Positions 41 through 15,952 of a stretch of 64,000 nucleotides of DNA are shown one piece after another. This stretch comes from Haloarcula taiwanensis (GTDB lineage Archaea; Halobacteriota; Halobacteria; Halobacteriales; Haloarculaceae), in the NCBI GenBank assembly GCA_002844335.1, contig CP019157.1, positions 1 through 64,000 of the forward strand, given 5' to 3'. How positions within the stretch are numbered: the stretch's first letter is position 1; the number at the start of each line of letters is the position of its first letter. The translations under genes and the position numbers were made by a program. The notes under the pieces were generated by a model. That model did not search any database, was not told where the DNA came from, and saw only the letters and a list, made by a program, of their open reading frames with translations.

Positions 41-259
41 TCAGACAGGATCTCCCTGCATGAGCTGGACAACCGCGTAGCCGGCGACGACCAACACAAG
101 CACGAAAACGTCGGGGGTAACCAGCGTCCTCAGTGGGGTTCCGCCACTGAATGTCTGCAGTGCCACGACACAATTGACCCCGACAATTGCGATCCATCGG
201 CCAACTGTGAACTCACCGAGCCGCTGCAGTATGATGAACGACCCGACCGCGAGAGCCAC
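41..259 (-). CDS. Small two-TM protein, paralogue of the C-terminus of the big surface protein
   Basis: 72 residues from a GTG that directly follows an in-frame TAA. Two hydrophobic helices (about 5-35 and 50-66) flank a short polar loop. The whole chain aligns with the last ~70 membrane residues of the surface protein at 1495-5454: both have LQR[IL]GEFT, RWIAIVGV and a closing FVLV-VAG-AV-QL helix. It is therefore a free-standing copy of that membrane anchor. It is the last gene of the operon visible here and lies 24 nt after the preceding stop. It could be a partner subunit or a relic of a partial duplication. Confidence 0.7.
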   Translation of the reverse strand: MALAVGSFIILQRLGEFTVGRWIAIVGVNCVVALQTFSGGTPLRTLVTPDVFVLVLVVAGYAVVQLMQGDPV

Positions 260-283
260 TTAGCGATAGAACAGCGAAGAGCA

Positions 284-667
284 TCACGGCCCCTCCGTAA
301 GAGTGCAGCCGGCGGTCAGCTGGCGCTCGGCGAGGACATCGGCTTCCCCACCGAAGTCAACCGCGACAGCAGTCACCGTCGAGTTCGCTGGCACGTCGAA
401 TCCCCACGTTGTCGGCCTGTCGATGGTCATGGAGGCCGTTTCACGGCCAGCGACATCTATCAGGATACGGTCAGCGCTTCCGGGGTCCGCGTGCCCGCGC
501 AGATGGCAGTCCCCTGGCGAGACACTGTCAGCGCCAGAGAGTTCGACGGACGGGCCTGCAGTGTCCGAGAGCGCGCCGGCCGCCCCCATCGCGAGCGCCA
601 CCGCGACGAAGCCCAGCACGACCACGCCCACTACCCCAGGATGTGGCACGCAGATTCGCTTACTCAT
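284..667 (-). CDS. Exported or membrane-anchored small beta-rich protein, unknown
   Basis: 127 residues. An N-terminal hydrophobic segment (about 12-32) after a basic start looks like a signal anchor or signal peptide. The rest is polar and beta-prone, with two cysteines (near residues 54 and 121) that could form a disulphide outside the cell. The start overlaps the stop of the upstream gene by 4 nt (ATGA), so it is translationally coupled within the minus-strand operon. I recognise no family. Confidence 0.65.
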   Translation of the reverse strand: MSKRICVPHPGVVGVVVLGFVAVALAMGAAGALSDTAGPSVELSGADSVSPGDCHLRGHADPGSADRILIDVAGRETASMTIDRPTTWGFDVPANSTVTAVAVDFGGEADVLAERQLTAGCTLTEGP

Positions 668-870
668 GCTGCCCTCCGGTCGACGGCCGGGTCCGTTTCA
701 TCGCCCCAGTAGGCTACCAACTGCCCGACAGCAAGACTCGACAGCGCGAGCCCCAGCCACCACAGCATCGGGCCGCCGATCCCGACCAGCCCCAGCCCGA
801 CGACCAGCGAAGCGAGCTTCCGTGGGTGACCGCGGGCTTCGGCAACCCACGAACCCTCGGGCACAATCAC
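664..870 (-). CDS. Small two-TM membrane protein, unknown
   Basis: 68 residues with two hydrophobic stretches (about 20-37 and 38-54) separated by a tight glycine/tryptophan turn, and a charged tail. It overlaps both neighbours by 4 nt (ATGA at each end), as expected for a real operon gene. No recognisable domain. It sits between a winged-helix regulator and an exported protein. Confidence 0.6.
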   Translation of the reverse strand: MIVPEGSWVAEARGHPRKLASLVVGLGLVGIGGPMLWWLGLALSSLAVGQLVAYWGDETDPAVDRRAA

Positions 871-1190
871 GAGTCTCCCCCCAGCGCCCGGTCAAGACTG
901 TCCCGCATCCCGGCCAGCACCTCATGGCCGTCCTCGGTCACCGAGTACGTTTCTCGTCGCTTGTTCGGTCCCGACGCTTCGACCAGCCCCGCCGCTTCCA
1001 GTTCCGAGAGTTGTTCCCGGACCCAGCGGTCACTCGTGCCGAGTCCCTCCTGTGCTTTCTGTGCGATGAGTCCGCGCCAGCCGTCGCCGTCGTGGGCTTC
1101 GACCACAAGCAGGCAGGTCTGTGCGACCGGCGAGAGGTTCGCGAAGGCCGCCCAGTCCGGGTCGTCCTCGACGCCACCGAGGTCCGTCAT
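867..1190 (-). CDS. Winged helix-turn-helix DNA-binding protein
   Basis: 107 residues from the ATG that overlaps the upstream stop (ATGA). The order is helix (AQTCLLVVEAHDG), helix, recognition-like helix (SDRWVREQLSELEAAGLVE), then a wing with a basic tip and TYSVTEDGHEVL. This is the MarR/PadR-like archaeal winged-helix pattern. An upstream extension to 1244 lacks such structure and was rejected. Being inside the membrane-protein operon, it may regulate the element itself; its target is not visible. Confidence 0.75.
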   Translation of the reverse strand: MTDLGGVEDDPDWAAFANLSPVAQTCLLVVEAHDGDGWRGLIAQKAQEGLGTSDRWVREQLSELEAAGLVEASGPNKRRETYSVTEDGHEVLAGMRDSLDRALGGDS

Positions 1191-1495
1191 CCAAGCACCT
1201 CCGTTGTGAGCCAGTCGACGGCCCCTTTCCCGGCCACGTCCCACGCGGTGCCAGCCCCAGAGACGATATCACCGATCATCTGGCCCACGTCGACGCTGAC
1301 CCAGCCCGTCGCCATCCCCAGCACGAGTGCCCCGACGGTGAGCGCGCCAAACGTCGCGACTGTGCCGACGGCCGCCACCAGCCCGCCGATGATACTCTTG
1401 ATACGCCGGAACTTGTAGCCGCCGTACACGACAGCAGTGACCAGCGCCACCTCTTTCCCGAACTCGGCAACGAGCGCGCCGAACCAGTCGAACAT
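1187..1495 (-). CDS. Small membrane protein, unknown
   Basis: 102 residues. A basic patch (KFRRIKS, about 28-34) precedes a long glycine/alanine/valine-rich hydrophobic stretch (about 35-66), followed by an amphipathic tail ending near a tryptophan. Probably one or two membrane helices. It starts at the final base of the big surface-protein gene (1-nt overlap) and ends overlapping the winged-helix start. Unknown family. Confidence 0.65.
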   Translation of the reverse strand: MFDWFGALVAEFGKEVALVTAVVYGGYKFRRIKSIIGGLVAAVGTVATFGALTVGALVLGMATGWVSVDVGQMIGDIVSGAGTAWDVAGKGAVDWLTTEVLG

Positions 1496-4400
1496 CAGTC
1501 GTCACTCCCTCTGTTGCCGCCACTGCGACGAGCGATGATGTTCACCTGCGGTTGGTCGTCATCGGGCGAGTTGTTCGCGCGATACTCTCGCACGAGTTGG
1601 ATGACCGCGAAGCCAGCGATGACCACCACCAGCACGAACGCATCGGAGTTCACCAGCGCTGTCAGCAGGTCGCCCTCACCGAGCCATTGCAGCGCCAAAA
1701 CACCGAGTACACCGACAATCGCAATCCACCGGGCCGTCGTGAACTCGCCGATCCGCTGCAGGAATACGAGCGATCCGATAGCGAGACCGGTGACCGCCAG
1801 CATCGCGCCCAGTTCCGGTCCGATATCGATGTAGCCCGACTGAATGGCTGCCACCAGTGCCGCCGCGCCGACAGCGCTGGTCAATATGGTGTTCTCACCG
1901 AGCGTGACGATGGCGTCACCGAGCGCTTCGATGCTGCTGGTGACGCCGTCCTCGACGATCCCGCCGACGCGGGGCAGCTGTCCGGCAGCCGCCCCGGCGC
2001 TGGCCGCGAGTGAGTCAACCACGTTACGGGAGCGCTTGGGCCGCCGGCCGATCACGAACAGCATCGCAATCGAGCCGAACAGTGCGACCAGCCCGACGAG
2101 GTTGCCCTGGTCGGCCGCGCCGAAGATTGTCGACGCCCCGTCCGGGTTGGCCGTCGGTGCCGACGCCGTTTTGACTCGAATCACCGAATCGATGTTGTCT
2201 TTCGGCACCGTCATCGGCTCACGGCCTTGCACGCGGTCGAATCGCTTGGTCGTGTCAACCTCATAGACGCCGTACCACGAGCCCTCGGTCGCGCCCAGAT
2301 ACTCGACGGTGAACGACTCACCCGAGCGCTGTCCCGGAGCGACGGTAAACGCCGGGCTGGTGGCGTTCGTCTGTTGTTCTGGCACGCTCGCCCGGATAGT
2401 GCCATTGACCGGCGAGAGTTGAACGGGTGCGGTTCGGACGCCGACCTCGCTGCCTGCAGTGGCTTCCGGGAAGTGAACCCGCTGGGCGTGGCGTGTCGAG
2501 AGTTCGGCGTAATCGCCCTCTGCTGAGTAACTCTCGTTGACGCCGTAGTGAAGCTGCTGGGACTGTGACGTGTTCCCGACACTGATGTAGGAATCGCTGG
2601 CCCAGCTGTCCAGCCGGACCCGCGAATCGAGATCAGTCCCGACGGGTGTCGCATCGAGGACAGTCACCGCGCCGTTGTGAACGTCGACCTTCGAGCCGAC
2701 CGAGCGCACTTCGACGGTCGTTCCCTTCGGGACGGTGCCGCCGGTCAGTTCGGCAATGTCGATCTGCAGTTCGGTGCCCTGCATGGTGCGGGCCGACGCC
2801 GGTATCTGGGTCCAGCTCCCGGACTGCCCGACCCGCACTTCGAGCGACCGCAGGGAGATGATGTTCTGTGCGTGCGGTATCGTCAGCGTGGCACTCTCGC
2901 GGCTGGAAAGGTACGTTCGCGAGATGTTGTAGCGCTCGCTGAACGCTTCGTCTTGGAAGGTGACCGCCCGCCGGGTCGTCAGCTCGTGCTGGTAGTCAAC
3001 GTCGACGGTCGGCGCTGGGGCATCAGTGCCGGTGTCGCCATCGCCAGCGACGACGGTGACGTTGTTCTGGCCGGACTGCAGCCAGCTCTGATTCGCCGTG
3101 AGCGTCGTCGTGTCGTCTTGGCTGAGCGTGCCGGACATCCGCACCGGCTGGCCGTTGATAATGACACCAGCGTCCTCGGTGACCGTGCGTTCCGTGTAGC
3201 CGATAGCCACGTCGACAGCGCCCGACTGCGTGCCGACTGTGGCATTGCTGACCGACGAGTCGAACTGGTCAATCTGGACGGTCTGCGATTCGCCCTCATT
3301 GAGCTTGCCCAAGTATTCCGCTTCGGCCATGCCGTCGCCGTCGATATCCAGCGTTGGGTCCTCGGTCGTCGTGGTGACCGTCGAGCCGGCTTCGACGCCG
3401 ACCTTGTGGCCGGTCGCCACCTGTGCGGTTTGTGACCCGGACTGGATGTCCGGCAGCGACCGCGTAACCGTCTCGCCATCCATCAGGACGCCGTCATACG
3501 AGGCATCAGCCGTCCCGTCGCCGTTGATATCTATCGACGGGTTCTTTGTCGCCGTGCGCTCGGTGAACGAGAGGTCTGTATCGACTTTACCATCGTCAAG
3601 TGAGACCGTCGCAGTGTGTGAGCCGGTTGGGACGTTCGATGCGCTGACCGTCGCTGTCTGTCCTGGTTGAAGGATGCCAGAGTAGCTTGCATCGGTGGAG
3701 CCGTCGCCGTTGATGTCGATGCTCGGGTTTTCGGTTCCGGTACGGGCTGTATAATCAAGCGAGTAGTCGACTGCCCCAGCACCGCTCACGGATATACTGT
3801 CACCCAGAGCGACCGGGAAACTCTTAGTTTGCGACCCTCCACCCTCCACAAAAAAGCTCTTAGACGTGCCGCTGCCCGCCGAAATTGTCACATCTGCCCC
3901 GGTTTTGTAATCAATATGGATGTACGAATCGTAGGTATATCCGTCGTAGACGAATGATTGAGCACCGCCACCGCTCCGTTCAAAATGGATATCATGGTCT
4001 GGACTCTTGTCTTTTTTAACGGAGAGAGTGACATTATCCGAATTTTTTGGGTCCCATGTCTCAATATCGACGGTTTTGGTTCGCTTGTTGAAACTCACTC
4101 CAGACGCCACTAGCGTCCCTTCAGTGTGGTCTTCGTCTACTCCTTCACGAGTGAGATATATTTCATAGGACCCACCACTAGAATATTCCTCCATATGAAA
4201 TGTAATCTCAGTAATTGCCGAATTTGGAACCCGTTTTAATTCGGATGACCACTTATTACCAGCTACGTAGGTATGCTCTCCCTGAGAGTATGAGTCTCCG
4301 CCAGAGACGGTGAGTTGCTCGTTGCTCGGGTTTAGGTTTCCTTCGAGGTTCAGCGAGTCCGACCCGCCAGCCGATAGCGTGCCACTGTCTGAGGCCGATT

Positions 4401-5454
4401 TTAACGACGAATCTCCTTTAAACGTCACCGACACGTCGTTCGCCAGAGTGTTCCCATCTGCCGTGTAGCTGAACGTGTCGCCGTTGGCAAGGTTCGAGGC
4501 TGAAACCGTCCGGCGGTTTGATGTCGACTTACCGATGAACGTCGTGGAAACGTTCGTCGCTGGCTGGTTCCCATCGATATTGTAATCGATAGTCTCACCG
4601 TCCGACAGCGTTGTCGAGAACAGTCCCGCGTCCGTCGTGGTCTGTTCGACGCCCGTGAACGTCACTTCGGGATTGCGTGGCTCGAGGTTGTCGCCAGCGA
4701 CAGACAGTGGAATCAGCTGGCTGTCGATCGCACCGATGACCTGTTTCGTGTCGCGTTCGGTGTTGACCTGCCCGGTCAGCGTTATCTCGGGGTCCGTCGC
4801 ACTGTCGAGGTCCCGAACCTCATACAGGTGGGTCGTGCCGGTCGTCGCCGGCTGACCGTCGATCTGCAGTGTCCCGCCGAACGTGATCGTGTTCGTCGAG
4901 AACCCGCTCACCCAGAACTGGGCTTCGCCATCGCGGACGTGCACCTCTTCTTGATATACCGCGCCGGACTCATGCACGACACCGACGACGGCTGGCACCG
5001 ACCCGTGCTGTTGTTCCAGCCAGTCCGTTGAGACGCCGACCCAGCGTCCGTCGTGGGTTCGGTCGTCAGTCAGATTCAGCGCGGGCTCGCCGTCGACAGT
5101 CGTTGTCGACGCCCGGAGTGTCTGTGCGCCCGCCGAGGCCGACAGCGACGGTTTGGTCGTGTTACTCTCGACGTGCGTGTCTGGTACCTTCGACAATGGT
5201 TTGTCTGGGTCGCGTGGCGCGGTACTCAGCTCTTCGATAGGGTCGCTGGCTGGCTCGGCTGGCGTCGACGCTGACTCTGCCTGCTGGCCGTCAGCAGTCG
5301 GCGTCGAGTAGACGGTCCCGCTGTTCGCGTCGTCGGGGGCGTTCGACTGTGGTGCGAACAGCATCGGCGCGGCGACGGACACGACGACGACCGCCAGCGC
5401 CATGCCGACAATCGACAGTTGTTCGCGAGAGAGTGGCAGGTCATCACTGTCCAT
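1495..5454 (-). CDS. Giant membrane-anchored surface protein with DxDGDG repeats
   Basis: 1,319 residues. The ATG at 5454 is preferred because a strong GGAGGTG site lies just upstream; a TTG 15 nt earlier is the alternative. Order: N-terminal membrane helix (about 15-35), Ser/Thr/Pro-rich stretch, long beta-rich extracellular region, then about five C-terminal membrane helices (from ~1118 to ~1290) and a short charged tail. Around residues 575-770 there are repeats of about 65 residues, three with calcium-binding-like loops (DINGDG twice, DIDGDG once) and a fourth degenerate. The middle part (about 400-520) is more AT-rich and Lys/Asn-rich, suggesting local replacement. A role as surface, spike or adhesion protein is inferred from architecture only. 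Confidence 0.8.
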   Translation of the reverse strand: MDSDDLPLSREQLSIVGMALAVVVVSVAAPMLFAPQSNAPDDANSGTVYSTPTADGQQAESASTPAEPASDPIEELSTAPRDPDKPLSKVPDTHVESNTTKPSLSASAGAQTLRASTTTVDGEPALNLTDDRTHDGRWVGVSTDWLEQQHGSVPAVVGVVHESGAVYQEEVHVRDGEAQFWVSGFSTNTITFGGTLQIDGQPATTGTTHLYEVRDLDSATDPEITLTGQVNTERDTKQVIGAIDSQLIPLSVAGDNLEPRNPEVTFTGVEQTTTDAGLFSTTLSDGETIDYNIDGNQPATNVSTTFIGKSTSNRRTVSASNLANGDTFSYTADGNTLANDVSVTFKGDSSLKSASDSGTLSAGGSDSLNLEGNLNPSNEQLTVSGGDSYSQGEHTYVAGNKWSSELKRVPNSAITEITFHMEEYSSGGSYEIYLTREGVDEDHTEGTLVASGVSFNKRTKTVDIETWDPKNSDNVTLSVKKDKSPDHDIHFERSGGGAQSFVYDGYTYDSYIHIDYKTGADVTISAGSGTSKSFFVEGGGSQTKSFPVALGDSISVSGAGAVDYSLDYTARTGTENPSIDINGDGSTDASYSGILQPGQTATVSASNVPTGSHTATVSLDDGKVDTDLSFTERTATKNPSIDINGDGTADASYDGVLMDGETVTRSLPDIQSGSQTAQVATGHKVGVEAGSTVTTTTEDPTLDIDGDGMAEAEYLGKLNEGESQTVQIDQFDSSVSNATVGTQSGAVDVAIGYTERTVTEDAGVIINGQPVRMSGTLSQDDTTTLTANQSWLQSGQNNVTVVAGDGDTGTDAPAPTVDVDYQHELTTRRAVTFQDEAFSERYNISRTYLSSRESATLTIPHAQNIISLRSLEVRVGQSGSWTQIPASARTMQGTELQIDIAELTGGTVPKGTTVEVRSVGSKVDVHNGAVTVLDATPVGTDLDSRVRLDSWASDSYISVGNTSQSQQLHYGVNESYSAEGDYAELSTRHAQRVHFPEATAGSEVGVRTAPVQLSPVNGTIRASVPEQQTNATSPAFTVAPGQRSGESFTVEYLGATEGSWYGVYEVDTTKRFDRVQGREPMTVPKDNIDSVIRVKTASAPTANPDGASTIFGAADQGNLVGLVALFGSIAMLFVIGRRPKRSRNVVDSLAASAGAAAGQLPRVGGIVEDGVTSSIEALGDAIVTLGENTILTSAVGAAALVAAIQSGYIDIGPELGAMLAVTGLAIGSLVFLQRIGEFTTARWIAIVGVLGVLALQWLGEGDLLTALVNSDAFVLVVVIAGFAVIQLVREYRANNSPDDDQPQVNIIARRSGGNRGSDD

Positions 5455-5656
5455 CAGAATCACCTCCAACAGCGTTCAGGGGGGTCCCCCCTTCCGTTCC
5501 TGTTCCAGATACGCGCGCGTACCGTACGGAACTTTTCTTCCGCTCGCGGTGATCGGGGCCGCGGCGCCCGCCAATCCGGCCGCCACAGCCGATTGTCGTG
5601 AACGTAAAAGGCCGGTCGATATCGGTCATGACTAGCGGCGTTGCTGGGTCAGTCAT
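5444..5656 (-). CDS. Small basic protein, unknown
   Basis: 70 residues; overlaps the ATPase stop by 4 nt (ATGA) and the surface-protein start by 11 nt. Gly/Arg-rich centre (about 24-48) with no membrane segment. The two overlaps argue for translation, but composition alone would not. Function unknown. Confidence 0.45.
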   Translation of the reverse strand: MTDPATPLVMTDIDRPFTFTTIGCGGRIGGRRGPDHRERKKSSVRYARVSGTGTEGGTPLNAVGGDSDGQ

Positions 5657-7194
5657 CGGCCACGACCTCCGGTCGCGCCGGGGCCAGTGCGTCTCGGGAT
5701 GCGTGCCGCCACGATCTCCGTGCTACTGTCGGGGTTGAACATAATATCATAGTGGTTCTGGGTCGTTTTGATCGGGTTCTCCGGGAACGTGCCGTCAGCA
5801 TACGGGCTCGAAAGTTGCTCGAGCACCTCTGGCGCGTCACCAGAGATATCGATGATGCCGTCGCCGGGCGCGAGGACACGCAGCTCGTGCACAGCGCCAC
5901 CGGCCGCGCGGTACTCGTTGAGAATTGTCGGCTGGTCCTCGTCGTCGGTCGCCACCTGAAGCTCCTCGACGACCATGCCGTCGTCGTCGCTGGTCGACAC
6001 GTCGACGGCTTCTGGAATCCCGAGCCGCAGCTGGAACTCTGGCGTGTCGTGTGGGTAGCCGAGGTCCGAGAACTGGAACTCCGAGAACCGGTTCTCGTTG
6101 TAGCACAGCCCGAAGCCAATTGGTCGCTTCGAGAGGAGATCGTTGTCTTGCTCGATATCGCGGAACGGCTTTGGAGCCTCGCTCTTGGTCGTCCGATTCC
6201 CGCGTTCATTATTCGACAGCTCGACCCAGAAGTCGAACTCTTTGAGCCAGTGATTATGGACGTCTTGTTCGTGGTGGCCGTAGCCGATTAGCGACAGCCC
6301 AGCCGACCGCATTTCCTTCGAGATGTTCGCCATGATCCGCACGCACTCATACGTCCAGTGGCCGGATTCACCGCCAGACGCAGATTCCGGAGCGACCATG
6401 CCGAACTCGTCGATATGCGCGGTCATCCAGTTACGCTCGCCATCATCGTCAACACGGAGTCCATCGAACGTGCGAGCGGCCAAGAACCCGAACCACCAGT
6501 GCGATGCCGGCGTCGGGTTCGCCTCGTTTTTCGGCACGAACTCAGGCTGCTTGACTGTCGCATCCGCCGTCGACAGCGCATCCTCACATTTCCGGAAGTA
6601 CGGGTCCGGGAACACCACGTTGTACGTGCCCTTAGGGTGATCCTGTAGCCGCTCAACGAGTTCATAAACGTCACTGTAGTATCGCACGTCCCGACAGAGT
6701 TCGTCGGGATCGGGCTCGCCACGGTCGACCACTTCCATCCACCGGCCTTCGATATCGACACCACTGGGCAGCCACAGCGTTGTCCAGTCACGCATCCGTC
6801 GCCAGTCCGAGCTTTTCTGCCGTCCATTTCTGACGATACGCTCATCGTTGTGTTCCATCTGGTACGTGGCAAACTGGTCAGCGACGGTCGATTTCCCGGA
6901 GCCCTTCGGGGCTTCAACCATCGTCAGTGACGCTCCGGGTGAGCTCACCGTCGACGGCCCCTCTGCAGCGCTCTCGATATGCACGAGAAAGTCCGGGTAC
7001 ACGCCCGATAGCGCCGCTCCCTCGCGTGGATAGAACGCCTCTGGGTCGAACGCCGGGATATCGAACCGGGTTCGAATCTCTTCAGCGTCCTCGTTCCACA
7101 TCGGGTCTGGCTCGTTGCCATAGACGATCTGTGCGCCCTGTTTCGTCTGTTCGGTGAATCCGTCCTGTTCTGACTTTGGTTTTCTCTGTGACAT
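5653..7194 (-). CDS. P-loop ATPase of HerA/VirD4-like type
   Basis: 513 residues. Walker A APKGSGKST lies near residues 95-103 and a Walker B-like HIDEFG near 261-266. A later GHHEQDVH stretch sits where HerA/FtsK/VirD4-type motors carry a sensor motif. No membrane helix is evident, so it probably acts in the cytoplasm. It lies between the MCM helicase and the big surface protein in an operon full of membrane proteins. Its job may be DNA packaging, DNA transfer or assembly. The P-loop is secure; the subfamily is an inference. Confidence 0.7.
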   Translation of the reverse strand: MSQRKPKSEQDGFTEQTKQGAQIVYGNEPDPMWNEDAEEIRTRFDIPAFDPEAFYPREGAALSGVYPDFLVHIESAAEGPSTVSSPGASLTMVEAPKGSGKSTVADQFATYQMEHNDERIVRNGRQKSSDWRRMRDWTTLWLPSGVDIEGRWMEVVDRGEPDPDELCRDVRYYSDVYELVERLQDHPKGTYNVVFPDPYFRKCEDALSTADATVKQPEFVPKNEANPTPASHWWFGFLAARTFDGLRVDDDGERNWMTAHIDEFGMVAPESASGGESGHWTYECVRIMANISKEMRSAGLSLIGYGHHEQDVHNHWLKEFDFWVELSNNERGNRTTKSEAPKPFRDIEQDNDLLSKRPIGFGLCYNENRFSEFQFSDLGYPHDTPEFQLRLGIPEAVDVSTSDDDGMVVEELQVATDDEDQPTILNEYRAAGGAVHELRVLAPGDGIIDISGDAPEVLEQLSSPYADGTFPENPIKTTQNHYDIMFNPDSSTEIVAARIPRRTGPGATGGRGR

Positions 7195-7196
7195 CG

Positions 7197-9146
7197 TTAG
7201 CTCACTCCAGTCAAATCAGCCGGCTCACGGCGGTTCACGTCGCCCCCGCCGAGCCCGGCGTTGTGGACAATCGGGATATCGAGGTCGGCCAGCGACCGGC
7301 TGACCATTTCCTTCGCGACTTCGACATCCGCCATCGTAATCTCTTCACGCAGGTTCGCCCGAGCGCTCGCCTGTGCGACACGTCGAGCGGCCCCGAGCTT
7401 GCGGGCAGTCACGGGTACGGGCGGGCCATGATACCGGCCGTCCGCGTCCGCGAGTGCATCGCGATAGCGCTCGGGCAGCGCCATCTTTTGCTCTTCAAAC
7501 CACGCGGCCAGCGCCTCGATGACCCTGTCGTTCGCGGGCGTGGGATGCAGCTGTCGGGCCCGCATCAGGACTGCACGGTACTCATCCATCGATAGCACTG
7601 GGTCGATAGCATCGGCGTCAGCCGTGTCGAGTGCCTGCCCAGTCGCGTCTTTCAGCGATGCTGACCACGTCCGAATCATCGACTCAGCCAGTTCCCGGAC
7701 GTGTTCGCGGTCCTGCTTCGACCGCATCTGCATGATAAGGTCAAACCGCGACAGCAGCGGGCTGTTGATGCCCAGCGCGTCGACCAGCGACTCGTCACCA
7801 GCGAAGTGACCACCGAGCGGGTTGCACACGCCCAGCAGCCCGCACTCGGCTGGGAGCGTCATCGACTGGCCGGCCAGCGACAGTGGCAGTATCTGGTCGG
7901 CCAGCGCCGAGTGCATCTTTTCGATGGCGTCCTCGCCAGCCTTGTCCAGCTCGTCGACGACCGCGATCCCCTCGTGGGCGCGCACCAGCACGCCGGGCTC
8001 GATGCTGAACCCGCCGTCGGAAAAGTCGTCTTTCACCGCCGCCGCGGTCAGTCCCGGCCCCGACACACGCTCGCCGCTCGCGAACGCCGACCGGGGCGCG
8101 ACCGCCGCGGCCCACTTCGCCAGCACGGACTTCCCTGTGCCCGGGTCGCCGGGTAGCAGGACGTGAACGTCGCCCCGATAGTGCGAGCCGTCCGGCCCGT
8201 CGAACGTCGACGCGCTGACCAGCTGCAGCACGAGCCCGCGAACCACCTGCCGGTCCCGTGGGTGCGAGCCCGACACGAACTTCGGGGCTGCAGCCGCCAT
8301 CAGCACATCCGCAGTCGACGGGTTCTCGATATCCACGTCGAAGGACTCCGGGCGCTCGCGAAGGCGCTCGAAGAGGTCCCGCTGGTCGGCCGTGAACTCT
8401 GCGTCCTGATAGGTCTGGCCGGCCGCTTGCACGGAGTTCACGACGACCTGTGGCTCGGGAATCGGCCCGCCACCGCGGAACTGCAGCTCACCAACGAGCA
8501 CCACGTCCTGACAGTTCGCGATGGCCCCATGTCCCGCGAGGTCGCCCTGCAGGTGCGCGATGATATCCGATGTGTCACCGCCCAGTGCCGCGCTGCTGGG
8601 ATTCTCTAACAGGAGCTTCTGATAGTCCTCATAGCGGGACTGGTCGGGATTGATCCGGAACGGGCCTTTCATCTCACAGCCGACGCACTCGAAGGGCTCG
8701 ATGTACTGTCCGGGCTCGAATGGTATCCGGGTGAGGGTGCCGCAGCGCTGGCACTCGAAGGCCGCTTCGACGAGCCGCGGCTGCACCTGCGTTCGCTTCG
8801 CGACCTGCCCTTCGAGCGCCAGCAGTTGCCCACGTCGGTCGCTCGGTGAGAACTCCCCGGGCGCGGTCGTGTGGGACTCAGGCAGGTTCTCGAAGCGCGG
8901 TGTCGCCTGCCCCAGCGACGTGTCGACCGGCAGCGGCGTGTCCGTGATGCCCGCTTCGACGTACTCAAGCATCGAATCGGGCGCATCGAGGATATCTTCG
9001 GCCAGCGTTGGGTCCCATCGCGCGAGCGCTGTCCAGTCCAGCGTCAGCGACGTGTCATCAGGATAGCGCTGGGCCAGCAGCGCCACCTTGTCGCTGACCT
9101 GCCAGCGGAGATACTGAGCGACCCGCTCGGACAGCTCGTCAGTCAT
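7197..9146 (-). CDS. mcm: MCM-family replicative helicase, divergent
   Basis: 649 residues, near the usual archaeal MCM length. The start ATG overlaps the GINS-like stop by 8 nt (ATGACTGA). The N-terminal domain carries a four-cysteine zinc site (CQRC near 132 and CVGC near 153). The AAA+ core has Walker A GDPGTGKS (~332), Walker B VVDELDK (~397), a sensor-1 asparagine in GVCNP, and an SRFDL arginine-finger motif (~465). The C-terminus has a helical winged-helix-like tail. It unwinds DNA at forks as a hexamer. Linker regions differ clearly from a typical chromosomal MCM, so this is probably the element's own replicative helicase. Confidence 0.92.
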   Translation of the reverse strand: MTDELSERVAQYLRWQVSDKVALLAQRYPDDTSLTLDWTALARWDPTLAEDILDAPDSMLEYVEAGITDTPLPVDTSLGQATPRFENLPESHTTAPGEFSPSDRRGQLLALEGQVAKRTQVQPRLVEAAFECQRCGTLTRIPFEPGQYIEPFECVGCEMKGPFRINPDQSRYEDYQKLLLENPSSAALGGDTSDIIAHLQGDLAGHGAIANCQDVVLVGELQFRGGGPIPEPQVVVNSVQAAGQTYQDAEFTADQRDLFERLRERPESFDVDIENPSTADVLMAAAAPKFVSGSHPRDRQVVRGLVLQLVSASTFDGPDGSHYRGDVHVLLPGDPGTGKSVLAKWAAAVAPRSAFASGERVSGPGLTAAAVKDDFSDGGFSIEPGVLVRAHEGIAVVDELDKAGEDAIEKMHSALADQILPLSLAGQSMTLPAECGLLGVCNPLGGHFAGDESLVDALGINSPLLSRFDLIMQMRSKQDREHVRELAESMIRTWSASLKDATGQALDTADADAIDPVLSMDEYRAVLMRARQLHPTPANDRVIEALAAWFEEQKMALPERYRDALADADGRYHGPPVPVTARKLGAARRVAQASARANLREEITMADVEVAKEMVSRSLADLDIPIVHNAGLGGGDVNRREPADLTGVS

Positions 9147-9468
9147 CGCTGTCCTCCGTGGTCGGCGTGACCGAGTCGCGCCACTCTTCGAGTCGGGCAA
9201 CGAGGTCCTCGACGAGCGCGCGCTCCTGGTCGGTGACGCCATCCCAGTTGACCGCCATCCCGGCAGCCCGGAACGACGCCAGTTTCAGGAGCTTCCCGGC
9301 CCGCTCGTCGGCCAGTTCGGTCGTCAGTTGCACCGCGTCGTCGGTGTCGATCTCCCCGTCGTCGACGGCAGTCTGTGTGCGCTCGAAGATTGTCGGTTCG
9401 GCCAGCTGGACGAGTGACGCCGCGTCCTGTTCGCGAGCCCGGGCCGCCCGGATTGCTTCGATATCCAT
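9139..9468 (-). CDS. GINS-like (Gins51-type) replication factor
   Basis: 109 residues. The N-terminal pattern (MDIEAIRAARAREQDA, then an FERTQTAVDD helix) and the central RAGKLLKLASFRAAG resemble the A-domain signature of archaeal/eukaryal GINS Sld5-Psf1 (Gins51), where an R-GK-L-LA helix is typical. The B-domain appears missing or minimal, so it is shorter than chromosomal Gins51. It sits immediately upstream of MCM with an 8-nt coupled overlap, and a ribosome site (GGAGGTG) precedes its start. GINS activates MCM within the CMG complex. The family call rests on pattern recognition and position. Confidence 0.6.
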   Translation of the reverse strand: MDIEAIRAARAREQDAASLVQLAEPTIFERTQTAVDDGEIDTDDAVQLTTELADERAGKLLKLASFRAAGMAVNWDGVTDQERALVEDLVARLEEWRDSVTPTTEDSDD

Positions 9469-10268
9469 TATCCCGGCGGCACCTCCTTGGCGCGGCCAGC
9501 AACGTCGGCCAGTTCGTTGCTATTGGTCACGAGTTCCGACAGCGACGAGTTCATCGCCGGGAATATCTCGCTGGCCAGCAGCCACTCAAGCCGGACTGAC
9601 GGCCCGCGAGTCAGTGAGTGCCACCAGTCGCCGTGGCGGTCCAGCACGTCCTCGATGAACCCGCTACGGACGTGCCCTTCGGTCATGTGGATGATATCCT
9701 CAGCCCACGCCATCACCTCAGACTCGACGCGGGGCGGGTCCCGTAGCGTCCACCGAAGCATCCCATGCTGTTCGACGGCGCGCTGATGCAATCGTGGCCG
9801 CCCAGCGACGTACTGAATCCGTTCGGCGTCTTTGACGCCCTCTTCATCAGAGAACTCCCCGACCCGCTCACGCAGCAGTTCAGTGGCGTCCTGAAACGCC
9901 GGCAGCAGCACCTTCCGAATGAGCCGCCGCCGGAACGCATCAGCAGTCTCGTCGTCGCTGGGTGCCTGGTCACAGATTGCGACCCGGTCGTCCGCATCTG
10001 CCATGAGGCAAGCGACTTCCCAGCGGTCTTGCACGAGCTCCTCGTGCCACGTCTCCGGGGTTTGCCCGCCCGACACCACGTCGACGGCGTGGCACCACTC
10101 CAAGACCTCGGTGCGACTCTGGAACCCATCGCGAAGGGACTGCTGCAGGTGCCGCTGCTGGGCGCGCAGCGAGTCGAGCCCAGCTGCGAACGAGCGGTCG
10201 ACCGACCCGTCGTCGCTCGCGAGCCATTTGAGGGCATGATGCCCGTCGGCCGCCATCGGGTCAGTCAT
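9468..10268 (-). CDS. Element protein of unknown function upstream of GINS-MCM
   Basis: 266 residues from the ATG that overlaps the upstream stop by 8 nt; an open frame extends further upstream only as a shadow of the preceding gene. Mostly helical, acidic and soluble, with many Trp residues in the second half and no membrane segment. It ends on the first base of the GINS-like start. Position suggests a replication or assembly accessory factor. I recognise no motif. Confidence 0.65.
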   Translation of the reverse strand: MTDPMAADGHHALKWLASDDGSVDRSFAAGLDSLRAQQRHLQQSLRDGFQSRTEVLEWCHAVDVVSGGQTPETWHEELVQDRWEVACLMADADDRVAICDQAPSDDETADAFRRRLIRKVLLPAFQDATELLRERVGEFSDEEGVKDAERIQYVAGRPRLHQRAVEQHGMLRWTLRDPPRVESEVMAWAEDIIHMTEGHVRSGFIEDVLDRHGDWWHSLTRGPSVRLEWLLASEIFPAMNSSLSELVTNSNELADVAGRAKEVPPG

Positions 10269-12069
10269 CCGCATCAACCCCCTGTTGTGGCGACGACGGC
10301 GAGAGGTTCGTTGACGGGTTGTTCCCGCCGTGTTCGTCGTCGAGCGCTTTCTGAATCTCCGTGCGAACACGGTCGACGATCTGCTGGCCTTTCTCGTGGT
10401 CAGACCATTCCAGCTCGGTGACTGCCTGCAGAACTTGGTCGAAGGTCTTGCGCTCTTCGTACTCGTGGCGCTCGGTCTGGACCTGTGCCTGCACGTCGTT
10501 CCAGTGGGACGGTCCCCAGTCGACTTCGAGCGAGCCGTCACGGGCTTCGTGGCCCTCGATCAGCGCCGGCAGCATTGCCAGCCCCAGCCCGATAATCGAC
10601 GAGCCCAGCGCCGCGACTGTCCCGAGGTAGACCGCTGCCCCGCCACCCAGCGCTATCGCGATGAATCGCCAGTTCCGACGGGCTACCCAGTTTGACACCG
10701 TTGCCGAGATAGCCGCCGGCAGTGCCGCGATGCCCTCACCTTCGGGCGGGTCCGCGAGGTCCGCTTCGTCGACCTCTTTCGTCAGTGTTGGCGAGAACTT
10801 CAGCCGCGCCGGCTTGTGCCGCAGCACCTTGTCGGACTCTGGGTCGACCTCGAAGAGTTGGTCGAGGTCGCCTTCGCCGCTGTCGTAGGACTTCCAGTCC
10901 TCGGTCGGTATCTTCGCCGGGTCAGCCCAGTAGCGGGCCAGCATCGGCCGAAGGCCGGCTATCGGCGCGTACAACTGGTCGCCGTGTCGGTACACAGACT
11001 TGATTTTGTTCGGCACACGCCGCGTCCCGACCGTTTCGTCACCACTCGGTGAGATAGCGCCCTGCCGGAGTTTTCGCTGGAAAAACCCGGCTTTCGAGAG
11101 GTCGCTGTCCCGGATGGAAAGCATCACCGGCAACGCCAGCAATCCCATCAGGATGCCGACCGCGATGGGTGCGTTCGCGAGGATAATCGACGTTTGCCAC
11201 GTACCAACTATCGCTGCGATGCCGATCACGACGGCGACCACGCCGGCCCAGTAACTCACTCCTTTTAGCGTCCCGAGAATCGTTCGCGAGAGGATGTGCT
11301 TCGCTGATGCCCCCGAGAACATGATGCCACAGATAGCCGGGATAATCAGATTCAGCGCACCCCAGCGCCAGAGGTCGCCTTTCGAGTTCGTCGGGTAGGC
11401 CGGGGATGCCGTCAGCGGGTTCGTTTGGTGCGCGAACCGCCAGCGTGCGCCTTCGACCCGGCTGCCGTCTTGTTCCAGCCACGCCGTTGCCTGCCACTGC
11501 TGGTCGTAATGGGACTGCAGTTTCAGCTTCGACGCCGAGTAACCGCTATCTGCCTCGAAGCTAATCCGCTGGACAGTCTGGTTCGCCGCGTAGGTCTGCT
11601 GTGTCCCGTTGACGCTCGTCGTCCGCTCTTGCCAGAACACCACGACGAACTCGTAGTCACCGACACTCTCGCCGAATGCGGATGTGTAGGCCAGCAGGTA
11701 GTCCGTTTTGAGTGCCTGATTCCGACCGAGCGGCTGGTAGGACGACTGGGCCGGATTCAACGGCAGGTACTTCAGCACGATCCCCCCGGTCGGGAGCATC
11801 CGCGTCGATTCCGGCGGCCCCTGTGAGCCACCACTTGATATCTGGTCGCCGCCCGTCCGCAGCTCCGAGATGTTGAACGGTCCCGGCGCTGTCCAGTCGC
11901 TCGACGCGCTGTCGCCCGTCTCGTTGGTCGCTTGGTAGTGTCCGTCAGCCACCGCTGCCGATGCGGGCATCGCGAACGCGCCCGCCACGGTGACAGCGAC
12001 GAGGACGACCGCAACACTAACCGCGGCGACGGCGGCCCTATCACCTCCCGAGAGTGCGTGTCTGCTCAC
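10261..12069 (-). CDS. Multi-pass membrane protein with extracellular N-domain
   Basis: 602 residues. Order: signal peptide (about 12-38, ending ASA), extracellular beta-rich domain of about 190 residues with several N-glycosylation sequons, three closely spaced membrane helices (about 235-320), cytoplasmic domain (about 325-460), two more helices (about 470-510), and a charged helical tail of about 90 residues. The layout recalls polytopic hubs of secretion or virion assembly (for example VirB6-like proteins), but I see no diagnostic motif. It follows a 44-residue gene by 2 nt. Confidence 0.7.
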   Translation of the reverse strand: MSRHALSGGDRAAVAAVSVAVVLVAVTVAGAFAMPASAAVADGHYQATNETGDSASSDWTAPGPFNISELRTGGDQISSGGSQGPPESTRMLPTGGIVLKYLPLNPAQSSYQPLGRNQALKTDYLLAYTSAFGESVGDYEFVVVFWQERTTSVNGTQQTYAANQTVQRISFEADSGYSASKLKLQSHYDQQWQATAWLEQDGSRVEGARWRFAHQTNPLTASPAYPTNSKGDLWRWGALNLIIPAICGIMFSGASAKHILSRTILGTLKGVSYWAGVVAVVIGIAAIVGTWQTSIILANAPIAVGILMGLLALPVMLSIRDSDLSKAGFFQRKLRQGAISPSGDETVGTRRVPNKIKSVYRHGDQLYAPIAGLRPMLARYWADPAKIPTEDWKSYDSGEGDLDQLFEVDPESDKVLRHKPARLKFSPTLTKEVDEADLADPPEGEGIAALPAAISATVSNWVARRNWRFIAIALGGGAAVYLGTVAALGSSIIGLGLAMLPALIEGHEARDGSLEVDWGPSHWNDVQAQVQTERHEYEERKTFDQVLQAVTELEWSDHEKGQQIVDRVRTEIQKALDDEHGGNNPSTNLSPSSPQQGVDADD

Positions 12070-12071: not shown

Positions 12072-12206
12072 TTAGCCCCCCGACAGAGCGCTCGCGACGC
12101 CGTTGACGTAGTCTGTCGTTGCCTCCGGGGCCACGAACATCGCGATGGCGACGAGCCCGACCGCGGCCAGCATGACCGCACCCCAGCCCGAGATGTTAAT
12201 CTGCAT
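12072..12206 (-). CDS. 44-residue single-TM protein
   Basis: Begins MQINISGWGAVMLAAVG and has one membrane helix (about 8-27) followed by APEATTDYVNGVASALSGG. GGAGGCGG lies just upstream of the ATG. It overlaps the end of the upstream 119-residue gene by 11 nt and stops 2 nt before the next start, a tight operon fit. Size and shape resemble small major coat or pilin-like subunits, which is only a suggestion. Confidence 0.6.
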   Translation of the reverse strand: MQINISGWGAVMLAAVGLVAIAMFVAPEATTDYVNGVASALSGG

Positions 12207-12555
12207 CCACCGCCTCCTCTGCAGCCGCGCCCGTGTACAGCGCCAGCCCCACGACCAGCGCCGCCAGGAACACGATGAGCGTCTCTTTCGCCGTCAGTCC
12301 GAGAACCACTGTACCACCGCCAGCCAGTGCGCCAGCCCCGATGAACGACGCCGCCGCGCTCCAGAGGAATCCGCCGGCATACACGCCACCGAAAAAGCCG
12401 CCCACCAGTCCCGTCGTCAGCCGGGCCGGGCGGCCTTTGAACCACTTGATCGGGTAGGCTGTCTTTGTCAGCACCGACGTGTACTCGCCGATCACGTAGA
12501 ACACCATCCCGATGATGGCCCAGCCGGTCACCGTTGCCGTCGTCACGTCTGGCAT
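12196..12555 (-). CDS. Three-to-four-TM membrane protein, unknown
   Basis: 119 residues with hydrophobic segments at about 8-26, 47-65, 66-85 and 92-112, and a basic loop KWFKGRPAR between the first two. A clear GGAGGTGAG ribosome site precedes the ATG. The acidic C-terminus (EEAVDAD) overlaps the next gene. No known family. Confidence 0.65.
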   Translation of the reverse strand: MPDVTTATVTGWAIIGMVFYVIGEYTSVLTKTAYPIKWFKGRPARLTTGLVGGFFGGVYAGGFLWSAAASFIGAGALAGGGTVVLGLTAKETLIVFLAALVVGLALYTGAAAEEAVDAD

Positions 12556-12627: not shown

Positions 12628-12912
12628 TTAGCCGTCCGTTCGGTTGTCAATCTGTTCGCGAGCTTTCAGCAGCAGTTTCAGCAACAACAGCGCCGCCAGC
12701 CCAGCGACGAACTTCGAGGCCGTCGCCTGCGTGATCGGCAGGACCGGCGTGGAGCTGACCAACAACGTCGCCCCGTAGAACAACTGTCCGAGGTTCGCCC
12801 AGCCCCACTGCAGTAGCACCGCTAGCACGTCGAACTGGAATGCCCCGAACAGTGTCGTCGCCGTTGCCGTTGCCGCACTTGCTGGGTGGGTGAGAAAGTC
12901 TTTGAGCGACAT
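12628..12912 (-). CDS. Small multi-TM membrane protein
   Basis: 94 residues, hydrophobic from about 14 to 80 (probably three helices), ending with a basic KAREQIDNRTDG tail. It overlaps the stop of the upstream 152-residue gene. One of a run of small membrane proteins; unknown family. Confidence 0.6.
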   Translation of the reverse strand: MSLKDFLTHPASAATATATTLFGAFQFDVLAVLLQWGWANLGQLFYGATLLVSSTPVLPITQATASKFVAGLAALLLLKLLLKAREQIDNRTDG

Positions 12913-13370
12913 CAGTTGATGAAGGCACCTCCGCCGGGGATGAAGTCCAGCGCAATCTCGATGGCTGTCCGCAGGTACGTCGAGTACGCGACCACGACAA
13001 TCGCGAACACAATCGCCGCGCCCAGCAGTCCCGCCGGTCCCGTCCAGTTGAAAAAGTCGATTAGCAACTGGACACCAGAGCCGATGACACTGAGCACTGG
13101 CTCACCGATTGCGGACCCAGCGTCGATGAGCGTCGTCGCGATGACGACCGGCACATCCACGAGCCCGAGGTCACCAACTGTCGACGACCGCGAATGGCCG
13201 AAAAACACGTAGTTGATGGCCCAGAGGACTTTCTCAACGACTCCCTCGACGCCGTTCAGCAGCGGCGTCAAGATGAGCCCCAGAATGAAGCCGGTCGGAG
13301 AGGACGCGAATGCTTTCAGCGACGGCGGGAGGGCAGGGCCATCGCCGCCGCCGTTGGATGACTGTGACAC
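12912..13370 (-). CDS. Membrane protein with amphipathic helices, unknown
   Basis: 152 residues. A polar Gly-rich start (about 1-14) precedes hydrophobic stretches at about 25-52, 65-85 and 110-140, and the chain ends in FIPGGGAFIN. The gap to the upstream gene is 2 nt. Pore-like glycine/valine-rich helices suggest a membrane assembly component. No homologous family recognised. Confidence 0.6.
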   Translation of the reverse strand: MSQSSNGGGDGPALPPSLKAFASSPTGFILGLILTPLLNGVEGVVEKVLWAINYVFFGHSRSSTVGDLGLVDVPVVIATTLIDAGSAIGEPVLSVIGSGVQLLIDFFNWTGPAGLLGAAIVFAIVVVAYSTYLRTAIEIALDFIPGGGAFIN

Positions 13371-13372
13371 TG

Positions 13373-13816
13373 TCAGTCACCCCCGGAAAGCCGTTGGGCT
13401 CCCTCTCGAAGGCCGCGCACGACGACGAACAGCGTCAACAGGGTGAACCCCACCGCAACGAGGTAGCCCCAGAGTCCGAACTGTTCGACGCTGCTGGCCC
13501 AGAGGTCCTGTTGATACCACTGCAGAATCGGGACGAACAGCTCACCCAGCACGCCCGATCCTGTCGGGGTCTCGCCGGTCGACACTTCCCCGACGAACGA
13601 CGTTGCGCCCTCGATGAGCCGCTCCGGGATGCCGAACAGCTCGTCGATATACCGCCGAAGGCCGATGTACACCGTCGCGACCGTCGACAGGAGTATCGAC
13701 GCGCCGACGCGAGTCCAGTTGACCGGGTTCGCCGTATCGACGATGCGGTAATCTTCAAACTTCGAGTTGGAGTCGGCGTTATTAATCAAGCCCGTCAGCC
13801 CCGAGTCATCAGCCAT
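13373..13816 (-). CDS. Two-TM membrane protein, unknown
   Basis: 147 residues with membrane helices at about 36-54 and 117-138, a loop containing VGEVSTGETPTGSG, and a basic tail. A GGAGGTCG ribosome site precedes the ATG. Part of the contiguous membrane-protein block. Confidence 0.6.
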   Translation of the reverse strand: MADDSGLTGLINNADSNSKFEDYRIVDTANPVNWTRVGASILLSTVATVYIGLRRYIDELFGIPERLIEGATSFVGEVSTGETPTGSGVLGELFVPILQWYQQDLWASSVEQFGLWGYLVAVGFTLLTLFVVVRGLREGAQRLSGGD

Positions 13817-13852: not shown

Positions 13853-14134
13853 TCATTCGTCGACCGTCTCCTCCTCAGTTAGGCGGTCTGCCAGCCACTC
13901 TGGCACCGACATCGGCGGCATGGGCGGACCAGACCGCTCTAATCGGATAAACGAGGCAATCAACCAAGCGCTGCTGGCAGCAGCGACGATGCCTGCCGAC
14001 AGCACAGGATTCGTCGCGAATGGACGAACGATGAGGGTTGCAATGGCGGCACTGAAGTCGGCAGTCGGGACCACCACAACGGACCCAAACAGCAATACGA
14101 CCACTCCCAGCAAGTCAAGCTGGCGAGCCGTCAT
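13853..14134 (-). CDS. Two-TM protein with EEETVDE tail
   Basis: 93 residues with two hydrophobic helices (about 7-28 and 40-65) and a polar C-terminus ending LTEEETVDE. The upstream 170-residue protein ends VEEEETIDE, and the DNA around both gene ends is a 35-bp near-identical repeat (33 of 35 bases). The start overlaps the upstream stop (ATGA). The shared tail may be a sorting or interaction signal, or a mark of duplication. Confidence 0.6.
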   Translation of the reverse strand: MTARQLDLLGVVVLLFGSVVVVPTADFSAAIATLIVRPFATNPVLSAGIVAAASSAWLIASFIRLERSGPPMPPMSVPEWLADRLTEEETVDE

Positions 14135-14643
14135 TCGTCTATCGTCTCCTCCTCTTCGACGCCGAAGATATCCGTTGGCACGTCGATAGGCAGGCCCGGC
14201 AGCACATCGCCAGTCTCGTCCTCACGGAGATAGCGCACGACTGCGTACAGCCCGATCATCACCAGCCCGACAGTCACTGGGAACGCGAACAGTCCGGCCA
14301 ACGTCTCGCCCAGAACCGAACGCAGGACGGTTTCCGAGACATCCGCACCAGCAATCAGCAGATTCCCGGGAGCCTCGAAGAGCCCAGTCAGCAATGACCC
14401 AATCGCATCGCCCGCGTTGTTGAACGGCTGGGCAAAGAAGTTCGCCACCGCGTTGATGACATCAATGACTGCGACGACTGGCGAGACAATCAGGCCGACA
14501 ATCGACGCAGACAGCACTTTACCCGCGTCTCCACCATTCTGAAGGAAGTTCGTGATGCCGCTCAGAGACTCCTGTCCGCTGCCGTCACCGAGGCTAAGAC
14601 TCGGATCATCGCTGCCTCCGCCATCAGCACCGGTCTGGTTCAT
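14131..14643 (-). CDS. Membrane protein with acidic EEETIDE tail
   Basis: 170 residues. A polar Gly/Ser/Asp-rich N-terminus (about 1-35) is followed by hydrophobic stretches at about 40-66, 85-100 and 122-143, then an acidic tail ending VEEEETIDE shared with the next protein. GGGGTGAG lies before the ATG. Probably a two- or three-pass protein of the same assembly as its neighbours. Confidence 0.6.
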   Translation of the reverse strand: MNQTGADGGGSDDPSLSLGDGSGQESLSGITNFLQNGGDAGKVLSASIVGLIVSPVVAVIDVINAVANFFAQPFNNAGDAIGSLLTGLFEAPGNLLIAGADVSETVLRSVLGETLAGLFAFPVTVGLVMIGLYAVVRYLREDETGDVLPGLPIDVPTDIFGVEEEETIDE

Positions 14644-14649
14644 CCCGTC

Positions 14650-15237
14650 TCACCCCGCAATCCGGCGCTTGATCGGGTCGAACAGCCCCAGTAGGAACGC
14701 CGCCGCCCCCAGCAGCGCTGCAATGAGGATGTTCACCGGCGTCAGCAGGCCATCCCCGCCACCGCCGAAGATGCCACCGCCGCCCGATTCCTGCTGGACG
14801 ATCTCGCCGATCTCGATGGACTCCGCAGATTCGGAGTCGCTGTCCGTGCCGTCCTCTTCGACGAGGATACGGTAGCTGTCGTACTCCGACGAGTCAACGG
14901 CGAAGGTTTTCTCCGTGGTCTCGCCGCTGGCCGCCGACACCTGCCCAGAGTCAACCTGCGTAGTGATGCCGTCAGACACGCCATAGACAGTGTAATCGAC
15001 GCTCTGCCCGCTGGTGTTGGTCACTTCGAGGTAGACCTGCTGGGTCTGGTTGTCCACTGCGACGGTCTTGTCCGCCAGCGTGTCCGAGGTCGAAGTCTCC
15101 GTCGCTGTCGCGGTCTCGGTCGTCGCTGCGGCCGCGCCGCCAACGCCAGCGACGGCCATGCTGGCACAGATAAGGCCAGCCAGCAGCAGCGCAATCGGTC
15201 GTGAACTGTTCTTGTCAGTCGAGAATAGTCCTATCAT
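14650..15237 (-). CDS. Exported protein with C-terminal membrane anchor
   Basis: 195 residues: signal peptide (about 14-38, GGAAAA), Thr/Ser/Glu-rich linker, a beta domain of about 90 residues (KTVAVDNQTQQVYLEVTN onward), then a glycine-rich hinge and a C-terminal helix (about 165-187) closing with basic KRRIAG. This N-out, single-anchor layout is typical of archaeal surface or virion proteins. Overlaps the upstream stop by 4 nt. Confidence 0.65.
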   Translation of the reverse strand: MIGLFSTDKNSSRPIALLLAGLICASMAVAGVGGAAAATTETATATETSTSDTLADKTVAVDNQTQQVYLEVTNTSGQSVDYTVYGVSDGITTQVDSGQVSAASGETTEKTFAVDSSEYDSYRILVEEDGTDSDSESAESIEIGEIVQQESGGGGIFGGGGDGLLTPVNILIAALLGAAAFLLGLFDPIKRRIAG

Positions 15238-15776
15238 AGGTCTGAATCCCCGGTTTCGGGCTGGGGAACGCCCTGGTTGTCTGTCTGTTCGGTGCCGCCG
15301 TCGGTGGCCGCCAGCCGGGCAGCTGCAGTCGAGTCGTCAACCCTCGACGGACTCTGCAGCCGCCGTCGGTCAGCATCGGCATCAGCGCAATCGCCAGAAC
15401 AGTAGTAGAAGGCCGCTTGTCGTCGGAGCATCACCACCGACAGCGGCCCGAGTCGGCCCCGCCGCGGGCCCGAACTGCAGTGGACGACGGTATGCTCGTC
15501 AAAGCTGTCCCGGCCGGAGTGGTTGACAATCCGGTCGCCACAGTGGTCGCACGAGCCATCTACCTCCGGCGTGGCAACCTCATAGGCCACATAGCCGCCC
15601 AGCAGGGCAGCACCGACGCCGACGACCAGTCCGTCGACGATGCCGCCGCCGACAGTTGCCGCAGTCATCAGCGTCCAGCCGGCGTAGGCCAGCCCAGTGG
15701 CGGCGAGTCCGATACCGAGCCAGCCGACCACCGAGAGGTCCGACCGGCGCGCGTTGTCGACTTCGATGACGCTCAC
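15234..15776 (-). CDS. Membrane protein with cysteine zinc-knuckle domain
   Basis: 180 residues from a GTG preceded by GGAGGTGG. Two membrane helices (about 16-35 and 41-66) are followed by a soluble part with CDHC (~75), HC (~100) and YCSGDC (~127), a Cys/His set able to bind zinc. The tail is polar. It overlaps the stop of the first operon gene. The cytoplasmic zinc domain may be regulatory or a protein-docking site. Confidence 0.6.
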   Translation of the reverse strand: MSVIEVDNARRSDLSVVGWLGIGLAATGLAYAGWTLMTAATVGGGIVDGLVVGVGAALLGGYVAYEVATPEVDGSCDHCGDRIVNHSGRDSFDEHTVVHCSSGPRRGRLGPLSVVMLRRQAAFYYCSGDCADADADRRRLQSPSRVDDSTAAARLAATDGGTEQTDNQGVPQPETGDSDL

Positions 15777-15952
15777 ACGCCACCTCCAGCGATCAGGGTT
15801 GCTGTGAGATCCCGACTCGCGCCGGCAATCTCATGCCGTGTTCGCACGCGTCGACGGGTGTCGACCCTGTGCCATTCGGTTCGATACGGTTGATACGCGG
15901 GCTTGGCCGCGTTGGCCGGCGATTGTCGGTCGCCGGGGTCGTGTTCGCGCAT
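15773..15952 (-). CDS. First gene of the minus-strand operon, 59 residues
   Basis: Begins MREHDPGDRQSPANAAKPAY; basic, soluble and rich in Arg and Thr. Its TGA overlaps the GTG of the next gene, so it seems coupled. A TATA-like TTTATC lies about 57 nt upstream of the ATG. It may be a small regulator or a leader peptide. Confidence 0.5.
   Translation of the reverse strand: MREHDPGDRQSPANAAKPAYQPYRTEWHRVDTRRRVRTRHEIAGASRDLTATLIAGGGV

Follow-up and report, generated by a model that had tools for sequence, protein, structure and literature searches.

A fixed-order membrane-protein and ATPase operon on a Haloarcula plasmid: a candidate particle-forming module of temperate haloarchaeal elements

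The first 64,000 nucleotides (nt) of contig CP019157.1 of Haloarcula taiwanensis (assembly GCA_002844335.1; this whole stretch is referred to as the window) begin with a long minus-strand operon encoding an MCM helicase, a P-loop ATPase, a giant surface protein and many small membrane proteins, which raises the question of what kind of element such an operon serves. A sequence-only reading had proposed an undescribed virus-like, vesicle-forming or DNA-transfer element. We find that the operon is probably the particle-forming (virion or virion-like) module of undescribed temperate, probably non-lytic, membrane-enveloped haloarchaeal elements, and the best reading is that of a third, undescribed virion or particle module on the backbone of the viruses SNJ2 and LSV-48N, captured here by a plasmid. 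A particle-forming function is the most likely one because of the position of the module on a proven-virus backbone, the co-inheritance of its genes in fixed order, the membrane and surface character of their products and the presence of a DNA-pump type ATPase.

Organisation and spread of the operon

The operon consists of 22 consecutive genes, g22 to g01 (Table 1), between positions 15952 and 41. After correction of the starts from their homologues on plasmid pNG300 (the MCM gene starts at 9146, not 9242, and the gene for the 267-amino-acid (aa) protein g11 was corrected to 9468-10268), overlaps of 1-11 nt occur at 14 of the 21 junctions, and at 18 the genes are no more than 6 nt apart; besides the overlaps there are four spacings of 2-6 nt and three gaps of 24-72 nt. 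The frequent GGAGGT sites noted from the sequence are borne out, as 11 of the 22 starts have GGAGG or GAGGT in the 18 nt before them, against a mean of 0.7 and a maximum of 4 of 22 at random same-strand positions. The dN/dS ratios of 14 genes compared with one Haloarcula relative (0.06-0.33) point to strong purifying selection. The operon is genuine, and the sequence-only reading, which had counted about 23 genes with overlaps of 1-8 nt, was correct in substance.

In a sample of 391 Halobacteria genomes, the 602-aa protein g12 was found in 63 with a single-sequence query; a profile search raised this to 73 genomes belonging to 26 of 86 genera, and 12 of the 24 same-genus genomes carry it. Among the carriers with names are Halomicrobium katesii, Haloarcula sebkhae, Haloarcula vallismortis and many Halorubrum, with further copies in Halorhabdus, Halobellus, Halovivax and Natronolimnohabitans. 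In the 20 loci compared, the genes keep one order, g19-g17-g16-g15-g12-g11-g08-g06-g05. Identity runs from 93% to below 30% within the genus and is 74% in Halomicrobium, and is thus independent of host taxonomy. Since its spread is sporadic and its identity does not track taxonomy, the module is neither a fixed chromosomal locus, the case that the sequence-only reading had set against itself, nor a private oddity.

The same cluster, in the same order and spanning the origin of the record, is present on pNG300 of Haloarcula marismortui ATCC 43049 (NC_006391), almost gene for gene at 37-97% protein identity and with the MCM and GINS-like genes included. The gene order to be looked for in relatives therefore recurs, but the cluster already stands, with hardly a gene different in kind, in a public record, most of it annotated as hypothetical; the few papers found that name pNG300 deal with replication origins and genomes. 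The plasmids pNG100, pNG200, pNG400 and pHsi55 have the ATPase gene and few or none of the other module genes. Among the 20 loci the GINS-like gene is confined to one lineage and the MCM gene to that lineage and Halosegnis, so the joining of replication genes to membrane proteins, with which the earlier reading had led, is a one-lineage feature missing from most relatives, and the two genes are an add-on and not part of the module core.

Integrated relatives and their virus backbone

Ten chromosomal or megaplasmid copies were examined with 20-kb flanks. Four lie in elements of 28-44 kb that are bounded by exact repeats with one end beside or within a tRNA gene, namely tRNA-Ile (34.6 kb), tRNA-Lys (28.2 kb), tRNA-Pro (32.6 kb) and tRNA-Ala (44.2 kb, with a 29-bp repeat), and the GC content of the elements is 0.59-0.64 against 0.65-0.70 in the flanks. 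All four have a tyrosine recombinase at the left attachment (att) site, a protein of about 199 aa and an Orc1/Cdc6 gene; each of the ten copies has a second recombinase of about 200 aa close to the module, and at least two elements have a DUF7845-helix-turn-helix (HTH) protein at the right end. The virus-like mobile element that had been proposed thus gains in substance, as the cluster is sporadic, integrated at tRNA genes with att repeats and accompanied by virus-type integrases, and we regard it as mobile and virus-like on these genomic grounds.

The elements match SNJ2, a temperate betapleolipovirus, co-linearly at the integrase (34-50%), accessory protein (50-53%), Orc1/Cdc6 (33-49%), gp19/Rep (25-30%) and gp25 (57%), with further matches to its HTH protein and gp22. 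The gp19/DUF7845 protein was shown in 2026 to be the rolling-circle initiator Rep-Arvir (PMC13107129), and it is present in several of the integrated elements. LSV-48N, a lemon-shaped Haloferax virus whose particles have been imaged by microscopy (PMC12714723), is matched at the integrase (36-53%), Orc1/Cdc6 (33-46%), the 206-aa small recombinase (about 27-34%) and Rep (about 25%), and likewise has two integrases. The SNJ2-type backbone (integrase, accessory protein, Orc1/Cdc6 and, in several, Rep-Arvir) is thus present in the integrated relatives, as is that of LSV-48N (integrases, Orc1/Cdc6, Rep-Arvir). As this backbone is common to the elements, SNJ2 and LSV-48N, the module occupies their virion-gene position. 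The earlier label "undescribed" holds for the module but not for the backbone of its integrated forms, nor quite for the ATPase, a distant relative of the pleolipovirus NTPase.

The plasmid that holds the window measures 100,322 bp, of which the window covers the first 64 kb, and belongs to a 3.72-Mb Haloarcula genome. It is circular in effect, since its final 1.5 kb and its opening 0.29 kb match segments of pNG100 that adjoin each other directly, and the operon therefore continues into a circular plasmid and not off a linear end. It looks like a composite of pNG100-, pNG300- and pNG400-like pieces. Of the SNJ2 backbone it has only an accessory-like open reading frame (ORF), an HTH protein, a HicB-like ORF and a distant Orc1/Cdc6, and the window copy, like that on pNG300, is a plasmid-borne version of the module with MCM and GINS-like genes and without the SNJ2-type integrase and Rep; it may be a hybrid of the phage-plasmid kind or a vesicle plasmid resembling apHPVs. 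A tyrosine integrase gene at 56697-57710 of the window is about 90% identical to that of pNG100 and differs in type from the SNJ2-like integrase found in the integrated elements. On the same plasmid there is a second MCM gene at 76565-78394 (locus L046, 12565-14394), 30% identical to that of the operon.

Module proteins and the weighing of explanations

The predicted model of g08 is of moderate quality (pTM 0.61, mean pLDDT 60). Its top 50 structural matches are all members or kin of the HerA/FtsK superfamily, the best being HerA (Z 13.3, root mean square deviation (rmsd) 4.1, 231 residues), with TrwB (Z 11.8), VirB4 (Z 10.9) and TcpA also matched; comparison with the packaging NTPase B204 of STIV2 gave Z 11.2 and rmsd 3.3 over 186 of 208 residues. 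GK, DE and Arg are invariant in the Walker A, Walker B and arginine regions. The P-loop ATPase of the earlier reading is placed by its predicted fold in the HerA/FtsK superfamily, and it matches the NTPase profile of pleolipoviruses along 59 columns at a probability of 94.9, which suggests that the two are distant relatives. For g12, the AF2 model indicates a signal, a beta-sandwich ectodomain, transmembrane (TM) helices and a C-terminal coiled coil, and for g06 (taken at 1324 residues) an N-terminal signal or TM segment and four TM segments near the C-terminus are predicted, in agreement with the 602-residue membrane protein and the giant surface protein described from the sequence; the small membrane proteins are confirmed as well. 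Against solved structures the g12 sequence gave nothing telling and that of g06 no match; structural relatives of the g12 ectodomain were only generic immunoglobulin-like folds (best Z 7.6, below a telling level). The MCM assignment stands on a strong Pfam match, whereas the GINS-like identity of g10 is plausible but weak, as g10 itself has no match and one of six homologues matches Sld5/GINS.

Eleven module families were compared with proteins of pleolipoviruses, LSV-48N, His1, SH1, pMEFER01 and pHTUR05, and nothing convincing was found except at the ATPase. The integrated elements share with betapleolipoviruses the backbone listed above and, distantly, the NTPase, but they are larger than SNJ2 (17 kb), and of the Pleolipoviridae virion cluster (VP3-like, VP4 spike, ORF6-like and NTPase) only the NTPase matches; with profiles drawn from 8-9 pleolipoviruses, VP3, ORF5 and ORF6 gave probabilities below 25, and the value of 64 between g20 and the spike C-terminus is confined to the TM-anchor stretch. 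The structural block of LSV-48N contains a 904-aa protein with a signal and a C-terminal TM cluster, the layout of g06, but its structural module is non-homologous (profile probability about 5% or less by hmmsearch and hhalign) and no P-loop ATPase was found in it. SH1, a sphaerolipovirus, and His1 gave weak profile scores only. The module is undescribed in the open-access papers and virus records searched, unlike the backbones and analogous systems, and may be described elsewhere.

In the sequence of events that we propose, the element would excise and replicate first, the small TM proteins g19/g17, g16 and g15 together with g12 would remodel the cell membrane, the C-terminally anchored g06 would serve as the host-binding spike, and g08 would pump DNA into a budding particle that is released without lysis. 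In this genome the module would have moved to the 100-kb circular plasmid, without the SNJ2-type integrase and Rep, and gained the MCM and GINS-like genes. Several points weigh against a virus-like particle module. Apart from the ATPase, the core proteins match no known virion-module protein; the window copy has no virus-type integrase or Rep, and its plasmid has about three times the size of the integrated elements. For two elements compared with relatives no clean empty site could be shown, because the att repeats are imperfect and extend further, and because in relatives the left flank is not contiguous with the tRNA gene. At the sensitivity used, no relative was seen in 2.9 million IMG/VR contigs or in phage records, which is odd for an abundant virus, and the module is so far known from sequence.

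A serious rival, though we consider it rather unlikely, is that the operon encodes specialised membrane vesicles of the pR1SE/apHPV kind that carry a plasmid and are not viral; the boundary to an enveloped virus is thin. The window copy and pNG300 are both circular plasmids, and the design of the module, with its many membrane proteins, giant surface protein and HerA/B204-like ATPase, resembles that of apHPVs, whose ORF25 likewise resembles B204 and VirB4 (PMC10818511). However, the integrated forms have proven-virus backbones, the gene order differs, and no module profile matches pHTUR05, which we took to represent the apHPVs on the basis of PMC10818511 and its S8 peptidase. Membership of that group is defined by at least five of ORF6, 8, 17, 21, 23 and 24 together with the subtilisin-like S8 protease ORF7, and no such protease was seen in the module. 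A machine that moves DNA between touching cells, conjugation-like or pT26-2-like, is improbable. The g08 fold would suit it, as TrwB, VirB4 and TcpA are among its matches, and pT26-2 plasmids, whose core modules have been hypothesised to transfer DNA between cells (PMC6972569), resemble the present elements in having about 12 mostly membrane proteins, a HerA-like ATPase, integrated and free forms and often an MCM. Against this, viruses have their virion genes where the module lies, pNG300 is typed non-mobilizable, and Pfam searches with the ten largest proteins of the module showed no relaxase or type IV secretion partner of the VirB6/VirB8 type. Of the pT26-2 family (seven core genes, t26-5p to t26-15p), pMEFER01 matched only at the ATPase P-loop, with single-sequence templates of limited sensitivity, and its gene order is different. 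Least probable of all is a domesticated remnant or host-benefit surface locus that has lost mobility: many copies are chromosomal and a few have stop codons in the g12 homologue, but the distribution is sporadic within genera, selection is purifying, and att repeats, intact integrases and several lineages in one genome (two copies in G372) also tell against it.

With the particle-forming module as the preferred explanation, we place it among the temperate enveloped haloarchaeal virus-like elements, with a real chance of its being a new virus family. It is quite possible, if short of probable, that the enveloped archaeal virion specified by the module is of a new kind, with no relation to the pleomorphic and lemon-shaped types already known, and that haloarchaeal temperate viruses of quite different particle form arise by swapping whole virion modules on a common integration and replication backbone. 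A single backbone seems to bear three or more unrelated particle modules, one pleomorphic, one lemon-shaped and the present one, a sharp case of such swapping. About a fifth of the sampled haloarchaeal genomes contain the third module, yet it is missing from the viral collections that were searched. Since culturable strains have copies (Haloarcula marismortui with pNG300, Halomicrobium katesii, Haloarcula vallismortis and Halorubrum species), the choice between virus and vesicle is directly testable.

Gene inventory and minor observations

Table 1. Genes of the operon in the window, first gene at the top; locus counts are from the comparison of 20 loci.
Gene	Position	Strand	Product	Evidence and occurrence
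g22	15773..15952	-	59 aa, no assigned function	homologues in pNG300 and several elements
g21	15234..15776	-	180 aa, TM and Cys-rich segment, accessory	
g20	14650..15237	-	195 aa, signal peptide, ectodomain, C-terminal TM anchor	phrog_13810 5.6e-15
g19	14131..14643	-	170 aa, multi-TM core protein, g17 paralogue	present in almost all relatives; profiles of g17 and g19 find one another
g18	13853..14134	-	93 aa, membrane protein, lineage-specific	otherwise only in pNG300
g17	13373..13816	-	147 aa, TM core protein, g19 paralogue	
g16	12912..13370	-	152 aa, multi-TM core protein	19 loci
g15	12628..12912	-	94 aa, TM core protein	18 loci
g14	12196..12555	-	119 aa, about 3 TM	9 loci
g13	12072..12206	-	44 aa, TM protein	4 loci
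g12	10261..12069	-	602 aa, core envelope-type protein	AF2 model and searches; 73/391 genomes
g11	9468..10268	-	about 267 aa, soluble core protein adjoining ATPase gene	
g10	9139..9468	-	109 aa, GINS-like, lineage-specific	Sld5 3.5e-4 in one homologue; 5 loci
g09	7197..9146	-	about 649 aa, MCM helicase, lineage-specific	Pfam MCM 4.2e-48
g08	5653..7194	-	513 aa, predicted HerA/FtsK-superfamily ATPase, core, presumed DNA pump	fold and motifs
g07	5444..5656	-	70-aa ORF containing conserved DNA block, doubtful gene	
g06	1495..5454	-	about 1319 aa, surface protein, core, presumed spike	N-terminal signal and four C-terminal TM
g05	1187..1495	-	102 aa, TM core protein	17 loci
g04	867..1190	-	winged-helix regulator	phrog_2440/4278 about 1e-6
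g03	664..870	-	68 aa, TM protein	pNG300, pNG100, Haloarcula sebkhae
g02	284..667	-	127 aa, signal peptide, unique to window copy	homologue searches returned none of its own
g01	41..259	-	72 aa, detached copy of g06 C-terminal TM domain	homology to g06-type C-termini

The g20 protein is conserved in Haloarcula, Halomicrobium and part of the Halorubrum lineages. No virus record could be traced behind the PHROG matches 22963 and 13810, and a search within the genus for CRISPR spacers, made by short DNA matches, gave nothing convincing. The g01 product is 55-59% identical to g06-type C-termini and 85% to an ORF of pNG100, which adjoins winged-HTH and ATPase genes there, possibly as an immunity or regulatory mini-set. 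Within g07, a DNA block of about 60 nt (window about 5479-5542) is conserved in other Haloarcula genomes and in pNG400 sits in the intergenic region upstream of the ATPase gene; it is probably a regulatory site, and 5444-5656 may be regulatory DNA instead of a gene.

A Halosegnis marinus plasmid (locus L015, 4686-25453) has a divergent module with an MCM and a type B DNA polymerase. In genome G367 a typical pleolipovirus-like spike and NTPase (locus L104, 13744-18507) lie about 20 kb from the module, which suggests neighbouring or tandem proviruses. Directly upstream of the operon in the window, at 17000-20000, the GC content falls sharply to 0.42-0.44, and two genes there (321 and 471 aa) differ from the operon in codon use.

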